Source: an uncultured Prevotellaceae bacterium (GTDB taxonomy: Bacteria > Bacteroidota > Bacteroidia > Bacteroidales > Bacteroidaceae). From it: a DNA stretch of 63,105 bases. Both the position numbers and the translations under genes were made by a program. The stretch spans positions 1 through 63,105 of the forward strand of contig ONMR01000012.1 in the NCBI GenBank assembly GCA_900318995.1, in the 5' to 3' direction. The notes beneath the pieces were generated by a model that made no database searches, was not told the origin of the DNA, and worked only from the letters and a program-made list of their open reading frames with translations. This document shows, in pieces, positions 1 through 35,147 of the stretch. Every line of letters starts with the position of its first letter. Position 1 is the first letter of the stretch.

Positions 1-163
1 AAAACACGAAATGGAATATTAAAAACACACCAAATGATATTGAGCCAATTGCGTAGAGTTTCCTGCTCCCCGGACCAAATACGGAGTATCCTTCTAATAC
101 AGTGCTGATTAAGAGGGCTATTGCTGTTACTATGCGGATATTCCTGTAGGTTTTGAGTTTCAT
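1..163 (-). CDS. Small two-helix membrane protein, partial (runs off left edge)
   Basis: Only the first 54 residues are visible because the frame leaves the window at base 1. It begins MKLKTYRNIRI and has hydrophobic stretches at about residues 9-22 and from 38 on, so an inner-membrane protein with two helices is likely. It aligns without gaps to the gene at 185-394: LEG at 23-25, V28, G30, GSRKL at 32-36 and FGVF at 44-47 are identical. The ATG (161-163) lies 21 bases after the stop of that gene, so the two are probably one transcript. No known function is recognised. The ATG and reading frame are seen directly; the role is open. Confidence 0.6.
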   Translation of the reverse strand, partial: MKLKTYRNIRIVTAIALLISTVLEGYSVFGPGSRKLYAIGSISFGVFLIFHFVF

Positions 164-184
164 GACGGTAGTATGGAATGATGA

Positions 185-394
185 TTATGACTTATCTGAG
201 TCTTGCTTAACCCACTTGTTCTTAAAGGCGCTAAGCATGAGTGATATTACCACAAAGACACCAAAGACTATCCAACAAGTCATTTGCAGTTTTCTGCTAC
301 CCTGGCCATATACACAGGTTCCCTCAAGTGCATAGCTAGTAAAAATGACTATATATGTTATGATGTTGAGCAGATTGTAGGTTGTTGGTTTCAT
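185..394 (-). CDS. Small two-helix membrane protein, tandem paralogue
   Basis: 69 residues, with predicted membrane helices at about 8-24 and 40-57 and a short charged tail (KNKWVKQDSDKS) that should face the cytoplasm. The loop between the helices carries the block LEG..VYG.GSRKL shared with the partial gene downstream, so this is the first member of a tandem duplicated pair. The pair is transcribed away from the large structured RNA that begins about 40 bases upstream on the other strand. No signal for a known family is recognised. A real gene is favoured because the duplicated neighbour conserves the same residues. Confidence 0.6.
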   Translation of the reverse strand: MKPTTYNLLNIITYIVIFTSYALEGTCVYGQGSRKLQMTCWIVFGVFVVISLMLSAFKNKWVKQDSDKS

Positions 395-416
395 AATTGT
401 TAGAAAAGGGTTAGTA

Positions 417-448
417 TTTGCAAATTAAGGGATTATCCCTGGTATTTG
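417..448 (+). promoter_or_regulatory. Possible promoter for the large RNA
   Basis: TTTG at 417-420 and TATTTG ending at 448 are 20 bases apart, the usual -33/-7 spacing in Bacteroidetes. The -7 box is imperfect (GGTATTTG instead of TAnnTTTG). The 10-mer GTATTTGCAA occurs twice (414-423 and 443-451 region), and a small hairpin AGGGA-TTA-TCCCT lies between at 428-440. The assignment is an inference. Confidence 0.3.
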
Positions 449-449
449 C

Positions 450-1250
450 AATAGTAGCGTGGAAGATTACGCGCACCGGATGGCGGGATGCGGGCCTTTG
501 GGGGCCGCACCCTAAAAGGAGCCCGGGACGGGGACCGCTGGCGGCTGTGCCGCCGGGGGTGCGCGGCACGCTACCGAGGAGTGACGTGGAGGCAGTACCT
601 TATGGAGGATGCCGTGCAGACCCATAAGGTTCTGGTGGAACGTTACGACCCAGCACCCGGAAGGGTTGCGCCTGCTGCACGCAGCAGGAAGCGCAGGTGC
701 GATGCATTTGTTTAGGGAGGGTGACCGCCTGATGGACCAGCTATTTAACATAGTGGGGATTATGCTTGTAGGAGCGAGTGCGGGAGCGACGGAGGGCATA
801 ATCAAGAATTCCATTATGTTACATAGCGGAAAAAGGTGCACTACTGTCTCAAAGCGAACCATGCCCCATTGCGGCCTGAAGCCGCAATTAAAAGAAGCGT
901 GGAGCACGATTGCTATATCTATGCCTGGAATAGTGCTTGCACCATGGAGGGTGTAGATATAGTAATGGTGCGGAACACCTTGTTATTGGTAGGCCTGAGG
1001 GTTTGATGCTGCCGGCTATCTGCAGGAGGTTGCACCGGGAAGAACAGACAGGGACTGGAACTGATTAGGGTTGGGAAGCGTGCCCTACTCTGTTTCCAGG
1101 CGCTGGCTGTTCTGGGTTAAACAAGCCAGACAGTGGCGTTTGGGCGGGAGGATTACTCTATATACGGTTACATCGGCTGGAGCGGGATGCGGAGGCCGAT
1201 GGTGCAGGGCCACTGGCTGCTACCTCTACAGGGCGGGGCCGTAAGTACTA
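450..1250 (+). ncRNA. Candidate giant structured non-coding RNA (~0.8 kb)
   Basis: This stretch has no convincing reading frame but many long perfect helices in order: 540-545/549-554 (GGCGGC), 597-605/622-630 (9 bp), 671-677/682-688 (7 bp, CACG loop), 758-765/796-803 (8 bp, extendable by two U-G pairs), 868-875/881-888 (8 bp, CUGAA loop), 898-901/905-908, 910-921/954-965 (12 bp with one G-U), 967-970/976-979 (CGGAA loop), 1103-1108/1124-1129 and 1171-1177/1195-1201 (7 bp). The wobble pairs at 912/963 and 766-767/794-795 work only if the + strand is transcribed. No tmRNA, RNase P, SRP, group I or group II signature was found. Its size recalls the OLE, GOLLD and ROOL class of large ornate RNAs, but membership in any of these is not shown. 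Ends are approximate. Confidence 0.55.
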
Positions 1251-1358
1251 TTCTGCTTCTATTTGCAGATAAGGTTGATGGTTCGCAGTGAACAGCCCGC
1301 GATACATGATCATCGGATGTGGAAGCATCGGAAGAAAGCATCGGACGATTTCTTTTGC

Positions 1359-1366
1359 TATCTTTG
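1359..1366 (+). promoter_or_regulatory. -7 box of the Nim-like gene
   Basis: TATCTTTG matches the Bacteroidetes -7 consensus TAnnTTTG exactly and lies 34 bases upstream of the ATG at 1401. No clear TTTG -33 element is seen at the expected distance. Confidence 0.6.
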
Positions 1367-1400
1367 CCGGGCAAATTCATCGACATTATAACACTATCGT

Positions 1401-1877
1401 ATGGAAGAGTTCAGAGCGATGAGGAGATTCAATCAGCAGGCATCAGATGAGGCCTGTCTGAGATTGTTGGAATCGGCAGCAAGGGGCATCCTTGCTGTGC
1501 ATGGGGATAACGGTTATCCGTATGGGATTCCTTTGAACTTTGTATTCCGGGGCGGGCGCATTTGGTTCCATTGCGCTAAGGAGGGACATAAGCTGGATGC
1601 TATCCGCAGGGATGATAAGGTGTGCTTTACCCTACTCTCTGAGCCTGTGAAGAATGAGGGCGAATGGTGGAATAACGTGATGAGTGTTGTGGTGTTCGGG
1701 CGTATCAGGGAGGTGACGGACCAGGCTGAGATTGACGTTATCCTGCGGGCCCTTGGTGAGAAGTATTTCCCTGAAGGGTATGACATTGAGCATGACATGC
1801 AGAAGAACGGTCCGCGGGCTCTGGTACTGGAGCTTTGCATTGACCATATTACAGGTAAGTATGTGAAGGAAAAATAA
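1401..1877 (+). CDS. Pyridoxamine 5'-phosphate oxidase-family (Nim-like) flavoprotein
   Basis: 158 residues with the split-barrel flavin-binding fold of the PNPOx-like superfamily. It is most like the small Nim proteins: MRRFNQQASDEACLRLL near the N-terminus, the strand pair GYPYGIPLNFVF at about residues 38-49, IWFHCAKEGHKLDAI at about 54-68, and the VVVFGRIREV strand near 100. Members bind flavin and reduce small molecules; some Nim enzymes give 5-nitroimidazole resistance, but that cannot be inferred here. The gene has its own TATCTTTG promoter and is followed by a terminator-like hairpin. The start at 1401 is used because of its distance from the promoter; ATG at 1419 (MRRFNQQ) is the alternative. 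Confidence 0.85.
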   Translation: MEEFRAMRRFNQQASDEACLRLLESAARGILAVHGDNGYPYGIPLNFVFRGGRIWFHCAKEGHKLDAIRRDDKVCFTLLSEPVKNEGEWWNNVMSVVVFGRIREVTDQAEIDVILRALGEKYFPEGYDIEHDMQKNGPRALVLELCIDHITGKYVKEK

Positions 1878-1933
1878 GGAAAGGAATATCGGTACCGGAA
1901 TCATTTATATACCGACACCTTTATGGTGGGGAT

Positions 1934-1970
1934 GAGCAGGCAGGATGGCCTGTTCATTCTTTATTTTATT
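1934..1970 (+). terminator. Intrinsic terminator of the Nim-like gene
   Basis: An 8-bp stem GAGCAGGC/GCCTGTTC (1934-1941/1948-1955, one G-U pair) with a 6-base loop is followed by the T-rich run ATTCTTTATTTTATT. It lies 57 bases after the stop codon. Confidence 0.5.
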
Positions 1971-1980
1971 GATTATGTTA

Positions 1981-2011
1981 TTTGTTTTTAGGTGATAATG
2001 TTTTATATTTG
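1981..2011 (+). promoter_or_regulatory. Promoter of small RNA A
   Basis: TTTG (1981-1984) and a perfect TATATTTG (2004-2011) are separated by 19 bases, a textbook Bacteroidetes promoter. No reading frame starts just downstream; two strong hairpins do. Confidence 0.7.
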
Positions 2012-2015
2012 CATT

Positions 2016-2118
2016 GCAAACAAGGAGAGAGGGGCGCTGGTTGTGAAACCGGGCCCCTTATATTTCAATTATTGGAAAAGGACTGAGAAGGCTGGTAGCG
2101 ATACCAGCTTTCTCTATT
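2016..2118 (+). ncRNA. Candidate small RNA A (two-hairpin)
   Basis: Directly behind a perfect promoter lie two stem-loops. The first pairs GGGGC 2031-2035 with 2053-2057 and GGTT 2039-2042 with 2047-2050. The second is a 13-bp stem, 2085-2097 with 2102-2114, closed by a GCGA (GNRA) tetraloop; its single G-U pair (2090/2109) indicates transcription of the + strand. No plausible peptide is encoded. The layout (promoter, small hairpin with inner loop, long hairpin) is the same as that of the candidate at 5091-5176. It could instead be a long leader of the acetyltransferase gene, but that gene has its own -7 box after the second hairpin. Confidence 0.5.
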
Positions 2119-2145
2119 GTATGGGTGGTGGTCTGAGTTTTTCAG

Positions 2146-2153
2146 TATATTTG
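2146..2153 (+). promoter_or_regulatory. -7 box of the Vat-like acetyltransferase gene
   Basis: TATATTTG, a perfect TAnnTTTG box, lies 25 bases before the ATG at 2179 and after the second hairpin of small RNA A. No good -33 element is seen at 19-21 bases. Confidence 0.55.
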
Positions 2154-2178
2154 TTCCTGCAACAAGCTAAATATCATC

Positions 2179-2829
2179 ATGAAGAAGATAACAAACAGGC
2201 CCGACCCGAATGCAGCTTTCCCGAATCCTAAGATTCCAAGCCTCTGCTTCATCAAGAATGTAGTGAAGAATCCGCGTATCATCATCGGAGATTACACTTA
2301 CTACGACGATGTGGATGGTGCAGACCAGTTTGAGAAGCACGTTACGCACTTCTACGATTTCATCGGCGACCGGTTGATCATTGGTAAGTTCTGCGCCATC
2401 GCAAAAGGTGTAGAGTTTGTGATGAATGGTGCCAACCATCGGATGGACGGCGTGACCACTTACCCATTCTATGTGATAGGCGGTGATTGGGGTTCTGCTA
2501 TTGCACCGGTGAAGAATGAGCTCCCCCTGAAGGGTGATACTGTTGTGGGTAATGATGTATGGATTGGCCAGAATGTAACTATCATGCCTGGCGTTCATAT
2601 TGGCGACGGTGCCATTATAGGTACCAACTCTGTTGTGGCGAAAGATATTCCTCCTTATTCAGTTGCTGTAGGCAATCCGTGCCGGGTGGTAAGGAAACGT
2701 TTTGATGACGAACTTATAGCTTATCTGCTGGACCTGAAATGGTGGGATTGGGATATTGAGAAGATTGAGGCCAACTTTGAAGCCCTGTCAAGCGGCGACC
2801 TCTCGCTTATCAGAAAGATAAACAAGTAA
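2179..2829 (+). CDS. Vat/CatB-type xenobiotic O-acetyltransferase
   Basis: 216 residues of the hexapeptide-repeat (left-handed beta-helix) acyltransferases, close in length and motifs to Vat/XAT proteins that move acetyl from acetyl-CoA to hydroxyls of streptogramins or chloramphenicol. Family marks: GDYTYYDD near residue 37, the IGKFCAIAKGV turn, FVMNGANHRMDGVTTYPF carrying the conserved catalytic His (about residue 90), then hexapeptide turns VVGNDVWIGQNVTIMPGVHI and GAIIGTNSVV and the C-terminal AVGNPCRVVRKRF. The substrate is unknown; many genomic Vat homologues are not resistance enzymes. A trimeric cytoplasmic enzyme is expected from the family. It is followed after 21 bases by the hydrolase gene. 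Confidence 0.88.
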   Translation: MKKITNRPDPNAAFPNPKIPSLCFIKNVVKNPRIIIGDYTYYDDVDGADQFEKHVTHFYDFIGDRLIIGKFCAIAKGVEFVMNGANHRMDGVTTYPFYVIGGDWGSAIAPVKNELPLKGDTVVGNDVWIGQNVTIMPGVHIGDGAIIGTNSVVAKDIPPYSVAVGNPCRVVRKRFDDELIAYLLDLKWWDWDIEKIEANFEALSSGDLSLIRKINK

Positions 2830-2850
2830 ATTCCGATCTATCTGCTTATC

Positions 2851-3531
2851 ATGTTCACAGAGTTTGAGACTAAGGGACGGCGCTGCGTGTATCGGGCTGA
2901 TGAGGAGCCGGAGATGCTGCTGGTGGAGGCCATTGATGCCCGTGAGTTTGAGGGATTGGATGCGGAAATATCGGCCATAAAGAAAGGATGTAAGAACCGG
3001 TTCGCATATGTCGCCTTGATTGTTGAGGACTGGAATACTGAGCTTGCACCTTGGACGGCAGCACCGGTCTTCGGGAAAGTTCCATTTGGGGATGGTGCCC
3101 GAAATACACTTGAGTTTATTAAGAATGGAGTATTACCTGAGATGCTTAATCGTTTCAGCTCTCTCAGAGGAGTTAATATTATCATAGGTGGTTATTCGCT
3201 GGCTGGATTATTCGCATTGTGGTGCGGGTATGAGAGCGATTTGTTCTATGCGGTTGCAGCAGCTTCACCATCTGTATGGTATCCTGAATGGATGGACTTT
3301 ATTGGTGGCCGCCAGCCTAATGCGCAGAGGATTTATCTGAGCCTTGGGGATGCTGAGGCTAAGACTAAGAATGCTACTATGGCCACTGTAGAGCAGAATA
3401 TCAGAGCAATGTCTGATTTGCTTAAAGGAATGCCTGGCGTGGAGAGTACACTTGTCTTTAATCAGGGTGGTCATTTCAAGGATCCTGCCTTAAGAACTGC
3501 ACAGGCTTTCATCTGGGCGCTACGGCATTAA
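2851..3531 (+). CDS. Esterase-D-like alpha/beta hydrolase
   Basis: 226 residues with an alpha/beta-hydrolase core. The nucleophile elbow is GYSLAG (Ser at about residue 115), followed by AASPSVWYPEW and a C-terminal GGHFKDPAL segment supplying the catalytic His. The GGYSLAGL elbow and ASPSVW strand resemble the esterase-D/enterobactin-esterase group, which hydrolyse acyl esters. No signal peptide is seen, so it should be cytoplasmic. It lies 21 bases after the acetyltransferase and is probably cotranscribed with it. Substrate unknown. Confidence 0.75.
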   Translation: MFTEFETKGRRCVYRADEEPEMLLVEAIDAREFEGLDAEISAIKKGCKNRFAYVALIVEDWNTELAPWTAAPVFGKVPFGDGARNTLEFIKNGVLPEMLNRFSSLRGVNIIIGGYSLAGLFALWCGYESDLFYAVAAASPSVWYPEWMDFIGGRQPNAQRIYLSLGDAEAKTKNATMATVEQNIRAMSDLLKGMPGVESTLVFNQGGHFKDPALRTAQAFIWALRH

Positions 3532-3536
3532 TTAAG

Positions 3537-3584
3537 CCGCCCCGTAATTATCGGCTTTCGTGAAAGGCGATAGTTACGGGACGG
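3537..3584. terminator. Long hairpin between convergent genes
   Basis: A 22-bp stem (3537-3558 with 3563-3584, two mismatches and one G-U) closed by CGTG lies between the hydrolase stop (3531) and the end of the lysis cassette (3607). There is no U-tract on either side, so it is a barrier or RNA-stability element rather than a canonical terminator. Confidence 0.5.
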
Positions 3585-3606: not shown

Positions 3607-3918
3607 TTACGCAGGTGCTTGTGTCAGCTGCTTGCGGAGATCCTGGACTTCGGTCTTGAGTTGGACATTCTCCTTGCAGAGTTGGTCTACTGATGTCTTG
3701 AGTTCTCCGTTCTCACGGCGGAGGGCCACGACCTCACGATTTACTGTTGTTAGGTCTTCTATGAGGCGCTTGTTTTCGGTCGAGAGGATATCGATGGAGT
3801 CTTGCATCGACTTGAGGGCATCATTGCGGCGCTTGCGCTTGCCGGCAAGCCAACCTGCAGCTGCTGTTATCATCGGCACCAGGCAGTCTGTGATTATTGA
3901 TATGGTTGTTGTTTCCAT
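3607..3918 (-). CDS. One-helix coiled-coil protein of a lysis cassette
   Basis: 103 residues: a hydrophobic segment at about 7-24 (LVPMITAAAGWLAG), a KRKRR stop-transfer cluster, then an almost uninterrupted coiled coil from about 38 to 97. It starts 13 bases after the stop of the lysozyme gene and is the last gene of the minus-strand cassette. The layout of a short membrane anchor and cytoplasmic coiled coil is seen in holin-accessory or small phage membrane proteins; I do not recognise a family. A holin role is inferred from the neighbours only. Confidence 0.6.
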   Translation of the reverse strand: METTTISIITDCLVPMITAAAGWLAGKRKRRNDALKSMQDSIDILSTENKRLIEDLTTVNREVVALRRENGELKTSVDQLCKENVQLKTEVQDLRKQLTQAPA

Positions 3919-3931
3919 GGTGATTCATCTG

Positions 3932-4357
3932 TTATGAGTAATACAATTTGATTTCTTGCTCTCTCCTTTTGATGAGTCCGGGCATTTTCTCGTTGCCGGC
4001 ATAGATCCAGCGGCGGAACTCATCGGCTATGGAGGGGTCATTAGGGTCTCTCAGGATCTTCTTGCGGATGGTGGAGACGTTGAAGCCCCGGGCTCCTATG
4101 TTGAAGACGAAGCTGATGAGGGCATCAAACTGTTCCTGAGTGAGGTCTGCGCCCATCTGGTTGATACAGTGCTCGGCGTTGCGGATGTCCTGTTGAAGAA
4201 GCTCATCGGCTTTTTTTTCGGTTATTTGCATGCCTTGGTGGACGCCTGCGGTGTGGCCGTAGCCGATGGTCCAGACGCCTGCCGGACAGAGGTATGAGTT
4301 GAGGCGTAGCTGCTCAAAACTCTTTATAAGTAAAAGTGCGTAATTTGTTGCTTTCAT
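3932..4357 (-). CDS. Phage-type lysozyme (GH24 endolysin)
   Basis: 141 residues, the usual size of T4/P1/P21-type endolysins that cut the MurNAc-GlcNAc bond of peptidoglycan. The motif E-8aa-(D/C)-5aa-T is present as E15, C24 and T30 (SFEQ...YLCPAGVWTIGYGHT), the Cys variant known from P1 Lyz. The C-terminal FDALISFVFNIG and GLIKRREQEIKLY are also family marks. There is no clear signal or SAR helix, so it would need a holin or other route to the periplasm. It lies between the u-spanin-like lipoprotein (25 bases upstream) and the coiled-coil protein, on one transcript. Confidence 0.9.
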   Translation of the reverse strand: MKATNYALLLIKSFEQLRLNSYLCPAGVWTIGYGHTAGVHQGMQITEKKADELLQQDIRNAEHCINQMGADLTQEQFDALISFVFNIGARGFNVSTIRKKILRDPNDPSIADEFRRWIYAGNEKMPGLIKRREQEIKLYYS

Positions 4358-4382: not shown

Positions 4383-4895
4383 TTAAACGGTGTGTGTTTG
4401 GCGGGTGACAATCTTGAATACTATCAGGAAGATTGTGGCCGCTATGATTAGGATTATGAGGCGGTCCAGGATGGGTGATGCTCGGGGTTGCTGGGTTTGC
4501 TTTTCATGGTATTGGGTGTTTTGTGTGGTGGTTGTGTCTTGGGCTGATGTGTGTGTTGTGGCTGTGGTTTCTGCCTGGTTGGTGGTGGACTCCTGTTCTA
4601 TTATCAGGGTGCCTCCTCCCTGCTCTATTAGCTGGTTGGTTAGATTCTGAAGGGAGCTGTTAGTTCTTGGGATTGGCAGGTCCGGTGAGGTTATTTGGAA
4701 GCCTGGGATGTAGGTTATGGTGAACTTATGGCTTTGGCTGGCCATGAGACGGTGTGCTGCGCTGTCTATGGCGTTCTGGGTGATGGATGTGGTTGATGTG
4801 CATGTGGCGGTGGTACGCTTGCTGGTGCGGCAGGCGGGCATCAGAAGTATCATTGTTATGATGCAGGATAGTGTGATGAGGTGCTTTGTTGTCAT
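4383..4895 (-). CDS. u-spanin-like lipoprotein with C-terminal membrane helix
   Basis: 170 residues from the ATG at 4893-4895; an upstream in-frame ATG (4949) lies before the promoter and is rejected. The N-terminus is a lipoprotein signal ending LLMPAC (Cys22). The middle is unusually rich in Thr and Gln, and a single membrane helix (LIILIIAATIFLIVFKIV) sits at about 146-163. An outer-membrane lipid anchor plus a C-terminal inner-membrane helix in one chain is the defining layout of unimolecular spanins, which join the two membranes in the last step of phage lysis. Its place directly before a lysozyme supports this. No sequence family is recognised, so the role rests on topology and context. 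Confidence 0.65.
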   Translation of the reverse strand: MTTKHLITLSCIITMILLMPACRTSKRTTATCTSTTSITQNAIDSAAHRLMASQSHKFTITYIPGFQITSPDLPIPRTNSSLQNLTNQLIEQGGGTLIIEQESTTNQAETTATTHTSAQDTTTTQNTQYHEKQTQQPRASPILDRLIILIIAATIFLIVFKIVTRQTHTV

Positions 4896-4927
4896 GGTAC
4901 ATAGGGTGTTTTGCATTAGTATTTGCA

Positions 4928-4958
4928 CAAAGATAATGAATTTGTGCAATCTGCCAAA
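4928..4958 (-). promoter_or_regulatory. Promoter of the lysis cassette
   Basis: On the minus strand TTTG (4955-4958) and TATCTTTG (4928-4935) are exactly 19 bases apart, a perfect Bacteroidetes promoter. Transcription should begin near 4921, about 26 bases before the ATG at 4895. Confidence 0.75.
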
Positions 4959-5282: not shown

Positions 5283-5287
5283 TGTCG

Positions 5288-5361
5288 TGATTCCGCCGGG
5301 ATTCAAACCCGGAACCTTCTGATCCGTAGTCAGATGCTCTATTCAGTTAAGCTACGGAACC
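5288..5361 (-). tRNA. tRNA-Arg(ACG)
   Basis: A 74-base cloverleaf is read on the minus strand: acceptor GGTTCCG pairs with CGGAATC (one G-U) with discriminator A, the anticodon loop is CTACGGA (anticodon ACG) and the T arm is CCGGGTTTGAATCCCGG. CCA is not encoded. An intrinsic terminator follows directly. tRNA-Arg genes are frequent integration sites, and the orphan lysis cassette lies just beyond, but no repeat of the tRNA 3' end was seen nearby. Confidence 0.95.
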
Positions 5362-8793: not shown

Positions 8794-9363
8794 TTATTTG
8801 TTATTCAACCAATTATTGATTATTGTCTTACCCTGCGGAGTAAGTACGCTCTCGGGGTGGAACTGGATGCCGCGTATGTCAAACTCACGGTGTCTCAATG
8901 ACATTATGTATCCGTCATCGCTGCGGGTGGTAACCTCCAGGCACTCAGGCAGTTCCTTGTCATCGACCACCCACGAGTGGTAACGCCCCACCTCAATATC
9001 TGCGGGCAGACCCTTGAACAGATAATCCTGTATCGTGATATGTGCAGGAGTAGCCACACCGTGAACCACGTTCCCTATATTGAGCAACTTGGCACCGAAA
9101 GCCTCGCCTATGGCCTGATGTCCCAGGCAGATACCCAATATGGGTTTGCGTCCGGCATATGATTTGATAACCTGAGGCATAAGTCCTGCCTCGCTGGGTA
9201 TTCCGGGGCCCGGAGACAGCACAATCCTGTCATACTGCTCCAGGTCCTCAAGACGGAACATGTCGTTACGCACTACGGTCACACTTGCCCCAAGCTCCTT
9301 AAGAAGGTGACTCAGATTGTATGTAAATGAGTCGTAATTGTCTATTATTACGGTCTTTATCAT
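8794..9363 (-). CDS. trpG: Anthranilate synthase glutamine amidotransferase subunit
   Basis: 189 residues, class I glutaminase that supplies ammonia to TrpE. The nucleophile Cys is in GICLGHQAIGEAFG, and the His-Glu pair is in IQFHPESVLT near the C-terminus. The N-terminal IIDNYDSFTYNL is typical. The start overlaps the trpE stop by four bases (ATGA). Confidence 0.97.
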   Translation of the reverse strand: MIKTVIIDNYDSFTYNLSHLLKELGASVTVVRNDMFRLEDLEQYDRIVLSPGPGIPSEAGLMPQVIKSYAGRKPILGICLGHQAIGEAFGAKLLNIGNVVHGVATPAHITIQDYLFKGLPADIEVGRYHSWVVDDKELPECLEVTTRSDDGYIMSLRHREFDIRGIQFHPESVLTPQGKTIINNWLNNK

Positions 9364-10760
9364 AACTTCTCTGCCATTTGGATTGCCTTGCGCAGGGCGC
9401 CCAGCTTGTTGTTAACCTCCTGTAATTCATACTCCACATCGCTCTTGGCCACAATGCCGCCGCCGGCCTGGAACCACAGCTCACCGTTACGGCTCACAAA
9501 GGTGCGTATGGTGATGGCCTGGTTCAGATCGCCGTTAAAGCCTATAAAGCCTATGCATCCGCCGTAGGCACCGCGGTTATGCGGCTCATACTCACTTATA
9601 AGCTGCATGGCGCGTACCTTTGGGGCGCCGCTCAGTGTGCCGGCCGGGAAAGTGTCAATGAATGCCTTTACGGGATCGGCATCATTGTCCAACTCTCCCG
9701 ATACGCGGCTTACCAGGTGTATTACATGGCTGTAGTATTGCATATCCTTGTAAAAGTCTATGTGTACGTTGTGGCAGTTGCGGCTTAGGTCGTTACGGGC
9801 CAGATCCACCAGCATCACGTGCTCGGCATTCTCCTTGGGATCATTCTTAAGGTAGAGGGCGTTCTCTCGGTCCTGCTCGGCATTTCCGGTACGTTTGGTG
9901 GTACCTGCAATGGGATCGATGTATGCCTGTCGGCCCTGAATGCGGCAGTGAGTCTCGGGGCTTGAGCCAAAGATGCGGAATCCGCCAAAGTCAAAATAGA
10001 ACAGGTACGGACTGGGATTGATACTCCTAAGGGCGCGGTACAGCTGGAAATCATCGCCAGTAAAGGACTGCTTGAAACGGCGTGAGAGTACAATCTGGAA
10101 TACATCACCGCGCTTGCAGTGGGCAATTCCGCGGCGTATGTTCTCGCGGTGCTCATCATCGGTCAAGGTGCTGGTGCAATCGCCTACGGCATGGAATCCG
10201 AATGTGCGGAATGTATGTGAACTGAGGCAGTGCTCAAACTTGTCAAGTGAACTCTCCTCGCCTTCTGCAACCAACTCAATAAGAGTAAGTTCGTTGCTGT
10301 AATGGTCAAATACCGCGATGCTTTTAAAGAGCGTGTACTGCATATCGGCCGCATCGTTCTCCTTCTGGGTCTCGTCCTTGATGCTTATGTTCTCAAAGTA
10401 GCGTACGGCATTGAATGTGGTGAATCCGTACAGGCCGCAGTAGTTGCTGCCCTCGCCCTCTATGCTAAAGTGGCTCAGGAAATCATTTATGAGCCTGGCT
10501 GCGTCATAATCGGCACTGATGGCGTGCTCCTGCGTAGTTCCGTCTGGGAAAAGCATGGTGCCTACGCCATGGGCAATGCTGACTGTGGCAATGGGATTGA
10601 TGGCAATGAATGACTTGGAGTTCTCAACGCCGTGATAATCAGAACTCTCCATGAGTACGCTCTGTGAGTAGAGGTCACGTACGTTAAGGTATGCCGTTAC
10701 TGGAGTGAGCAGGTCACCTGCCACTTTACGGCTGGCTGTAAGGTATTTAAATAGCTTCAT
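9360..10760 (-). CDS. trpE: Anthranilate synthase component I
   Basis: 466 residues. Converts chorismate to anthranilate using ammonia from TrpG. Chorismate-binding motifs: [45 protein letters not shown], and GAYGGCIGF. An N-terminal [13 protein letters not shown] segment corresponds to the Trp-binding site region, so feedback inhibition by tryptophan is expected in addition to attenuation. It overlaps the trpB 3' end by 14 bases. Confidence 0.97.
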
Positions 10761-34500: not shown

Positions 34501-34953
34501 GTTTCTGGTCTCCTCCTTAAGAACTACATTAAAATTGTAATCCTTACCCATAGAGAGCACCACATTGTCATAAGCCACATCCTGATAACCCAGGAACGAT
34601 ACCGTCACCAGATACTTGCCTGGCTTGAGTCCCGACAGGGAAAAGATGCCGTACTTATTGGCAACCGCGCCGTAGAATGCGCTGGTCTCATTGTTGGTAA
34701 CCACTACCGATGCTGCCTGGAGCGGCTCTCCGTCAGAGTCTTTCACGGAACCGCTGATGGATGCTGTAGTGTTCTGAGACCATGCCCCTGTGCTGGCAAA
34801 CAACAACACGCATAGGCACGCAAACCCGATGAGTCTGAATGACATACTGTCGGCCATAGCCGAAAAACTGAACTCGGATGTCTCATTCACGCCCTTGGCA
34901 CAAATGAGTTTTGCAGGCGCGATAACGCCTGACAGGACTGTTTTGATACTCAT
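31528..34953 (-). CDS. TonB-dependent outer-membrane receptor (Oar-like), FMN-riboswitch controlled
   Basis: About 1,141 residues from the ATG at 34951-34953. A signal peptide MSFRLIGFACLCVLLFASTG ends at AWSQ; the ATG at 34843-34845 just before it is the other possible start. Then a carboxypeptidase-regulatory-like domain (TTASISGSVKDSDGEPLQAA, about 85 residues), a plug (RDGRGTTLTIDGAVLN, INVITKSGTNTFKGTAY) and a large barrel ending CWYFQLGVKLIFD. It belongs to the Oar/SusC-like receptors, but no SusD gene is adjacent. The gene lies behind an FMN riboswitch, so its ligand is most likely riboflavin or another flavin; this is inferred from the switch. Confidence 0.9.
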   Translation of the reverse strand: MSIKTVLSGVIAPAKLICAKGVNETSEFSFSAMADSMSFRLIGFACLCVLLFASTGAWSQNTTASISGSVKDSDGEPLQAASVVVTNNETSAFYGAVANKYGIFSLSGLKPGKYLVTVSFLGYQDVAYDNVVLSMGKDYNFNVVLKEETRNIPTVTIRGESTHFNETRTGQTYHIGRESMALLPSVNRSMLDYTRLSPYSGIENTMAGRDGRGTTLTIDGAVLNNSFGLSADLPGGGTPISIDAVEEMQVAIAPYDVRQSNFTGGGINVITKSGTNTFKGTAYTYFHNEKMRGNRIDGVDLGDRVSNSHTTVGFTLGGPILKDKLFYFVNAEYVTTPGPITEYKLSQDGVGDDAAKISRVTAADMDQFAAALKAYGYDAGGYDLTNGDQTNTKILARIDWNINNNHNLMLRYNWTGNKQWNTPNAKSTVGAKAASDRISKNSYAFLNNCFSINDNAWSAVAELNSRLSGHMSNKFSASVSDVSNLRGSESAWFPHIDIRKDGDAFMSAGYEAFSNGTGNYVRTYSFSDHIRWTLAHSTITAGLSYQYQKGATNYRMYGTGYYRYNSLEDFINQAAPAAFGMTYTYDGIDDPASRTSFGQTAAFLQAESHITDKFTVTYGLRADHMQYYEPLQTNESFKALDWTSHFYSTEQITGPKAPVIDNGKWPKANVQLSPRVGFNWNVDDARTLTVHGGAGLFTGRIPLVFFATIPNSSGMLQNTVMFPTAGDAFLTGLQGKFLYTEADLRNYLIQQGLPMTANPNPVLKGASITGIQDNFKLPQVFKTSLAIDYEPDDLAFPLAVSVEGIYNKDINAVYIENYNQVHDDAAGRFSGTDNRVNYNTVAPVYSTVSKSGGAMVISNTDKGYSWSLGGTVKAEPVYGLKTELAYIHQVSMSVQDMKGSALNSAWSNDVNVNSPNELGLRPSAYVIPDKLSAMATYRIGYARNKFMSTEVGVFYTGYTAGTYSYTYSNDMNGDGITNDLIYIPASKDEVKFVDNGAITAEMQQQAFWDFVNQDRYLSSHKGEYADANAAHMPWLNRLDLHLAQNFNVGALRGSKHNNETLQVSLDIMNVGNLLSSKWGVMQTPAACNNAKLLDYKGTDAEGYPQFTMATNKDGLVSKTFDLDKSNSNCWYFQLGVKLIFD

Positions 34954-34956
34954 AAA

Positions 34957-35064
34957 TTCTTCTTCCATCCAGACTATACTGTCGGTACCGTAGTTGCAAC
35001 GGTTCGGCCTTTCGGCTCGCGGACTCTACCGCCGGTCGGGGAATTGCGCCCCACCCTGAAGTTT
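34957..35064 (-). promoter_or_regulatory. FMN riboswitch (RFN element)
   Basis: On the minus strand the conserved blocks of the FMN aptamer occur in order: CTTCAGGGTGGGGCG, CAATTCCCCGACCGGCGG, TAGAGTCCGCGAGC, a GCCGAAAGGC arm, a variable hairpin, ACCGACAGTATAGTCTGGAT, and the closing GGAAGAAG. FMN binding normally turns off flavin synthesis or uptake genes. The 3' side of P1 (GGAAGAAG) is also the likely ribosome binding site for the ATG at 34953, 5 bases on, so closing P1 on FMN binding would hide it. Downstream, CAGGCG/CGCCTG inside ATGAGT/ACTCAT (about 34901-34953) forms a further hairpin that includes that ATG. Confidence 0.93.
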
Positions 35065-35147
35065 TACGCCTGCAAATTTCCGCTTTCTACGCGACTCTGC
35101 AAAGCTTTTTCTGCTAAAAAAGATAAAGTTTATGATAAATGGTAAGG

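Follow-up and report, generated by a model that had tools for sequence, protein, structure and literature searches.

The window analysed here is the whole of a 63,105-nt contig of an uncultured Prevotellaceae bacterium (ONMR01000012.1), read from base 1, and it opens with two minus-strand genes for small membrane proteins, one truncated by the contig start (2..163; no Pfam match) and one of 69 aa with two helices by eye, which we class as a passenger (185..394; no match in Pfam, PHROGs or NCBIfam at E ≤ 0.01). Between this divergent gene and the next feature lies a palindromic, promoter-like stretch of putative promoter function (417..451), followed on the plus strand by the predicted 3′ half of a giant structured RNA, blocks D1-D7 (465..1341), recognized from block order in relatives, covariation and a frame that is not conserved. 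Three plus-strand passengers come next, encoding a pyridoxamine 5′-phosphate oxidase family protein (1401..1877; Pfam PF12900, E 2.4e-22), a hexapeptide-repeat transferase (2179..2829; Pfam PF00132, E 1.7e-13) and a putative esterase with relatives at 9 of 27 loci (2851..3531; Pfam PF00756, E 3.1e-5). The lysis genes then lie on the minus strand: a holin-like protein with a membrane helix (by eye) followed by a coiled coil (3607..3918; PHROG 3671, of unknown function, E 9e-11), a phage lysozyme or endolysin (3932..4357; Pfam PF00959, E 2.3e-41; PHROG 7 endolysin, E 6e-53), and a spanin-like lipoprotein (4383..4949), named only from its position and N-terminus, which matched no family in Pfam, PHROGs or NCBIfam. 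Beyond them an RNA gene scan placed a tRNA-Arg(acg) gene (5287..5361, minus strand), its 3′ end towards the lysis genes. Elsewhere in the window, an FMN riboswitch occupies 34953-35067 on the minus strand (Rfam RF00050, 98.1 bits).

The initial annotation had proposed a structured RNA of about 0.8 kb at 430-1300. A structured RNA does appear to lie there, but its edges have to be moved, with the conserved block running from about 465 to 1341 and 430-464 belonging to the palindromic promoter-like stretch common to opposite-strand genes, and block profiles of relatives make it only the 3′ half of a unit of about 2.0 kb. This anatomy was drawn from profiles of 13 blocks (U1-U6 and D1-D7), the borders of which were our choice, and relatives hold them in a single order, U1-U2-U3-U4-U5-U6-D1-...-D7. 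The block series is uninterrupted in loci L033, L041 and L044 (about 2.0 kb in L033), L034 and L035 are without part of U2-U3, and the U half of the window copy is not visible because the contig begins at base 1. On the plus strand of the window, block D1 (465..575; helices 1 and 3 of alignment A2) begins the 3′ domain directly after the interdomain linker; D2 (576..705) combines a covarying hairpin (A2 helix 7, double changes in 6 of 11 pairs) with the highly conserved stretch ACGACCCAGCACCCG..AGGGTTGCGCCTG; D3 (735..868) is predicted to form a long hairpin, hand-mapped to about 740-770 with 797-827, which covaries in alignment A8; D4 (867..985; A2 helices 15-17) would fold into a hairpin at about 868-888 and a long hairpin at about 904-970, also hand-mapped; and D5-D7 (1000..1341), the 3′ end, are conserved in sequence with weak structural support. 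By eye, the 5′ boundary of the unit is rather sharp in 11 loci. Some genomes have more than one copy of the RNA, and short copies keep both ends with the middle missing. Insertion sequences break two copies, one with an IS110-type transposase (L045 283-1944) and one with a Mu/rve-type transposase that we take to be IS21-like (L043 1384-3974). Block D7 also occurs detached from the RNA in other intergenic places (L048 1197-1286 and 2013-2111, L049 3926-4024, L041 3805-3880, L042 3585-3712). The intact, split and internally deleted versions found across related species amount to a natural experiment.

Structurally, the helices of the initial annotation were borne out by compensatory changes well above shuffles, in the window fold laid on 14 copies as well as in alignments A8 and A2, and its proposal withstood a covariation analysis run as double-change counts, in which 0 of 500 shuffles reached the score in any of A2, A8 and A9; these shuffles do not preserve relatedness, and the RNA copies are mosaic. 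Window 440-1290 folds at −373 kcal/mol on the plus strand (z −6.9) and −297 kcal/mol on the minus strand (z −6.8), energies that none of 20 shuffles matched on either strand. The minimum-free-energy fold of window 440-1340 alone on the plus strand, made without an alignment, showed double changes in 58 of 305 pairs when laid on the 14 copies, and its 141 double-change cells exceeded both the shuffle mean of 68 (sd 6, maximum 83) and the 31-65 obtained with slid partners; the minus-strand fold of the window alone had double changes in 41 of 261 pairs and 101 cells, figures that come without a shuffle comparison. In A2 (14 sequences, window 464-1000, RNAalifold), 127 pairs were predicted, with 97.2% of cells paired and 86 double-change cells against 26.5 in shuffles (sd 4.1); A9 (nine sequences of the 5′ half, U4-U6) gave 117 pairs, 48 of them doubly changed, and 107 cells against 34.6 (sd 4.7); and A8 (22 sequences, block D3) gave 27 pairs and 66 cells against 21.8 (sd 4.1), counts that all lean towards structure because 19 of the 22 A8 sequences built its model and the A2 and A9 folds come from their own alignments. 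Slid structures scored far below the true ones in all three alignments. Further pair types were no more numerous than in shuffles for A2 (154/500) and A9 (187/500), and only narrowly more so for A8 (29/500). Along the window, the structure is strongly supported up to about 985 and weakly over 1000-1341 (z −2.4 and −3.4; 4 of 36 pairs doubly changed). From these comparisons we conclude with high confidence that the segment would act as a structured RNA.

The plus strand, from which the initial annotation had the RNA read, is favored moderately, and reading from this strand is likely, though not proven. Consensus energy was lower on the plus strand in all three alignments compared (A2, A9 and A4) and z-scores were stronger on it in each of the four stretches examined, whereas shuffle-based z-scores of the whole alignments (A2, A9, A4) were at least as strong on the minus strand. 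Pairs predicted on one strand only held 21 double changes for the plus strand versus 6 for the minus strand, and pairs predicted on both held 20 G-U versus 9 A-C cells, sums that are not independent because A4 overlaps A2. The absence of a reading frame also held up: 12 window ORFs were compared with 12 or 13 homologs each, and none remains uninterrupted and in frame throughout, the best kept being 1085-1213 on the minus strand (7 of 13 homologs) and 488-715 on the plus strand (6 of 13). A protein-coding or decayed gene was rejected, the 12 window ORFs being stopped or shifted in homologs. Mean identity over D1-D4 was 0.819 (55 pairs, 11 loci) versus 0.797 for the lysozyme gene and 0.621 for its third codon positions; at the level of sequence, the RNA thus appears conserved on a par with the lysozyme gene. 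There is almost no correlation between the D1-D4 and lysozyme identities (r 0.14), and some of the similarity may therefore stem from exchange between copies.

Blocks U6 and D1 were both matched in 12 copies, being joined and geneless in eight (L031, L033, L034, L035, L041, L043, L044, L142) and separated by a gap in four (L036, L040, L042, L144). Genes in the gaps lie on the opposite strand: that of L036 codes for a small membrane protein, and those of L040 and L144 code for larger proteins whose N-termini resemble secretion signals by eye; the L042 gap lists only a short ORF. In the prediction, U4-U6 forms a closed fold that ends shortly before the junction, so that passengers appear to insert into a linker separating two folding units. 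The aligned sequences indicate that the two RNA halves meet where whole passenger genes are tolerated. The palindromic stretch itself recurs at 16 places in 10 of 37 genomes of the genus, window 417-451 included (reversed-pattern control, 0), in front of genes for diverse small membrane or secreted-like proteins, several small ones of which end in ..KQDSDKS or similar, and it may mark a regulon. In a stretch running from 500 bases before the 5′ boundary to 250 bases past it, a full Bacteroidetes-type promoter was found at 0 of 11 loci, and two of the 11 had a −7-like match on its own; window 300-1500 yielded no sigma-70-type promoter on the plus strand and no terminator-like site.

A DNA search of 101 related genomes from 65 genera matched 23 of them at E ≤ 0.001, all in one genus, many of the matches being pieces, and at E ≤ 1e-6 a search matched 22 of 37 genomes of the genus, pieces included; the matches in G002 and G016 span only the first 65-67 bases, largely the palindrome. 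Two strictly filtered samples were searched with covariance model R1, built on block D3: at family level it matched 13 of 399 genomes, in 1 of 30 genera, and at order level 2 of 393, namely the window's own genome and G465. The G465 match (L189, G465:C4:127057-127174), from another family, is isolated and weak (38.1 bits, E 1.3e-4), with lysozyme and tRNA genes absent within 14 kb, and is probably due to chance. Among genome contigs, an exact-pattern scan found 13 stretches, which carry titles of Bacteroidales, Bacteroidaceae or Prevotellaceae MAGs; where a title states the source, it is yak, water buffalo, reindeer, red deer or horse. The RNA was absent from 50,697 phage and 72,556 plasmid records, and two exact RNA patterns had no match in viral contigs. 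Leaving the weak G465 match aside, the RNA thus appears confined to one uncultured Bacteroidaceae genus, and its carriers look like uncultured gut bacteria of ruminants and horses.

Downstream of the RNA and on the opposite strand, lysozyme genes were found at 16, holin-like genes at 15 and spanin-like genes at 12 of 27 loci, a set that includes short and derivative RNA copies; among the 13 longer regions the counts were 11, 11 and 10. The distance from RNA to lysis genes is 0.8-4.6 kb, filled by varying passenger genes, and a tryptophan-rich protein is encoded upstream of the RNA at 9 of the 27 loci. Across the 37 genomes of the genus, 19 have both RNA (pieces included) and lysozyme, three the RNA only, two the lysozyme only and 13 neither (Fisher p 1.9e-5, uncorrected for relatedness), and lysozyme is present in all 13 genomes with a block-D3 match. 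As to the genomes with lysozyme only, contigs end near the lysis genes in G004 and at one of two G021 loci. No full RNA was found at lysis loci L165, L167 and L171, where about 2.5-11 kb can be read past the holin gene, and D7 pieces occur in L165 and L171; at L047 the RNA lies near a tRNA gene and lysozyme is absent there. The holin-like family occurs in at least eight viral contigs, with terminase and tape-measure genes in L183 and a tape-measure gene in L184, and viral contig L180 encodes in a row a tryptophan-rich protein that shares 58% identity with a G025 protein of this type, an endolysin, a holin-like protein and a spanin-like ORF, with no RNA match. Tryptophan-rich proteins, a relative of which leads the L180 lysis genes, are also encoded at L148, three in tandem (155-3555) and one apart (9121-9801); Pfam recognized InlB-type repeats in one only, and they matched no PHROGs family, 9121-9801 having been searched against Pfam and NCBIfam only. 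AlphaFold models of two island proteins reached mean pLDDT of 60.0 and 50.7, and Foldseek with the first was uninformative. In all likelihood, the RNA is part of a lysis island.

A tRNA or tmRNA gene lies 0.9-6.7 kb downstream of the RNA on the opposite strand at 13 of 16 judged loci, the exceptions being L033, L037 and L039. Six kinds of neighbor were seen (Arg-acg, Arg-tct, Ala-ggc, Asp-gtc, Lys-ttt and tmRNA), with tRNA-Asp at four of the 13 loci, and p-values for this proximity are only a guide because 45 tRNAs per genome were assumed and four loci share tRNA-Asp. Nine loci were left out of the count as cut short, insufficiently scanned or fragmentary (L040, L042, L043, L044, L135, L136, L139, L142, L176) and had no tRNA within the scanned part; L141 was outside the tRNA scan; and among the short derivatives, likewise uncounted, a tRNA-Lys lies 2.2 kb downstream of L145 and no tRNA follows L140 or L146. 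In the fetched stretches of seven regions the tRNA 3′ end was not duplicated, so the case for island mobility is drawn from the six kinds of neighboring tRNA or tmRNA gene; BLAST found a hairpin directly after the tRNA in six of the seven regions. Upstream of the RNA in G025, the one region scanned closely, genes include those for GmrSD-type, PglZ and BrxL proteins, and comparison of 10 upstream genes with PHROGs turned up neither capsid nor tail families (a single NUDIX domain touches a portal family), which may mean that the island is defective or domesticated. The PglZ and BrxL genes there (L147 12850-17464, G025:C11) are BREX-type and lie about 22-24 kb upstream of the RNA.

Functionally, we posit that the RNA and the lysis genes would form one phage-derived island, upon whose induction the RNA would be transcribed, that the transcript would fold into an ornate particle, possibly through self-assembly of the ROOL and GOLLD kind, and that this particle could serve the island around lysis as a scaffold, a container or a sequestering agent. 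We regard as evenly balanced the reading that a new structured non-coding RNA of about 2 kb, with window 465-1341 as its 3′ half, accompanies phage-derived lysis genes and would be ROOL/GOLLD-like by context. Self-assembly around lysis in the manner of ROOL and GOLLD, suggested by analogy, is put forward more tentatively, and somewhat more doubtful again is the fullest version, in which the RNA would be a third class of phage-derived cage or scaffold RNA, about 2 kb long and of separate origin from ROOL and GOLLD, with two domains and a passenger-landing linker, working with a tRNA-associated lysis island that can hold defence genes.

Several other explanations deserve weighing. That the RNA is itself mobile, whether as a ribozyme-like element or as a non-autonomous repeat, and carries passengers while lying near lysis genes by happenstance, would suit the rather sharp 5′ boundary (11 loci), the deletion derivatives with both ends, the multiple copies in some genomes and the detached D7 pieces; we hold it unlikely, as the unit matches no intron or ribozyme family, its position relative to the lysis genes is constant beside different tRNAs, and no RNA-tied enzyme was seen. 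A little less likely is a cis-acting or antisense RNA that controls lysis genes or passenger genes facing it: the RNA is directed towards opposite-strand lysis genes and some copies have the promoter-like palindrome, but 0.8-4.6 kb and differing passengers separate RNA from lysis genes, and a structure of about 2 kb is large for a leader. The pairing could instead act in single-stranded DNA, during recombination, replication or packaging, given that covariation is blind to RNA versus single-stranded DNA and that a promoter was not recognised (11 loci; window 300-1500); we find this improbable in view of the better plus-strand fold, though that fold is equally compatible with single-stranded DNA, and because known single-stranded DNA sites are, to our knowledge, unlike a multi-domain structure of about 2 kb. 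Still less probable is an OLE-like membrane ribonucleoprotein with the small membrane proteins as partners, for although such proteins adjoin the RNA or its pieces in the window, L036, L072 and L145, eight of 12 linkers are geneless, different proteins occur elsewhere and OLE is not matched. Chance or a decayed protein gene, hinted at by stop-to-stop frames of about 200 codons in some copies, can be dismissed on the shifted or stopped frames of homologs and the 0 of 500 shuffles in three alignments.

Against known RNA families, no Rfam model reached its gathering score in the RNA segment; at E ≤ 5, window 300-1420 gave four matches, each of them on the minus strand and far under its cutoff, and the full L033 unit gave none at E ≤ 1. 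The initial annotation had set aside tmRNA, RNase P RNA and group I/II introns, rightly in that no covariance model of these matched the segment or the L033 unit, the sole group II intron match (L133 651-741) being outside the RNA blocks. Models of GOLLD, ROOL and OLE, all included in Rfam (PMC12286853), were unmatched at gathering score in the window and eight loci, at E ≤ 5 in window 300-1420 and at E ≤ 1 in the L033 unit. A literature search that covered few subscription journals recognised no description of the present RNA.

The initial annotation had been reminded of OLE, also a large, ornate RNA, by the membrane proteins that adjoin the RNA in the present window; the analogy falters, however, on linkers that are geneless in eight of 12 copies and hold other proteins elsewhere. 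Whereas OLE has a conserved membrane-protein partner, membrane proteins are not constant neighbors here, and OLE is reported as about 600 nt long and from Gram-positive bacteria (PMC9723947), against about 2.0 kb and Bacteroidaceae here. A partner role of the OLE kind for the small membrane proteins was rejected on the varying linker contents. ROOL and GOLLD, as described in PMC12286853, are encoded by phages or prophages, often near tRNA islands, and form cages. ROOL, which forms a homo-oligomeric nanocage, probably shares with the present RNA an ornate structure and this setting, and the 659-nt example studied in that work is from cow rumen (PMC12286853), whereas the present RNA is about three times longer, adjoins lysis genes and has no capsid or tail gene among the genes scanned. 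GOLLD, whose cage is a 14-mer and which that source describes as increasing during lysis, is a giant phage or prophage RNA often near tRNA islands and linked to lysis (PMC12286853); the present RNA has phage-type lysis genes nearby at 16 of the 27 loci and tRNA or tmRNA genes at 13 of 16, with no intact prophage recognised around it. The 3′ region of GOLLD is conserved and its 5′ region less so (PMC12286853), which counts as a further likeness. The GOLLD linker sometimes holds tRNAs (PMC12286853), whereas the linker passengers here are protein genes on the opposite strand, and GOLLD has "many members exceeding 800" nt (PMC12286853), whereas the present RNA is about 2.0 kb and occurs in one Bacteroidaceae genus only. 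The link with lysis genes is where the role of giant phage-associated RNAs might be looked for. On our best reading, ROOL and GOLLD rather than OLE would be nearest in setting, a likeness of context and not of homology; if that is true, a sequence-unrelated and much longer RNA in a ROOL/GOLLD-like place, with phage genes, tRNA neighbors and the rumen in common, would suggest repeated origin for one job.
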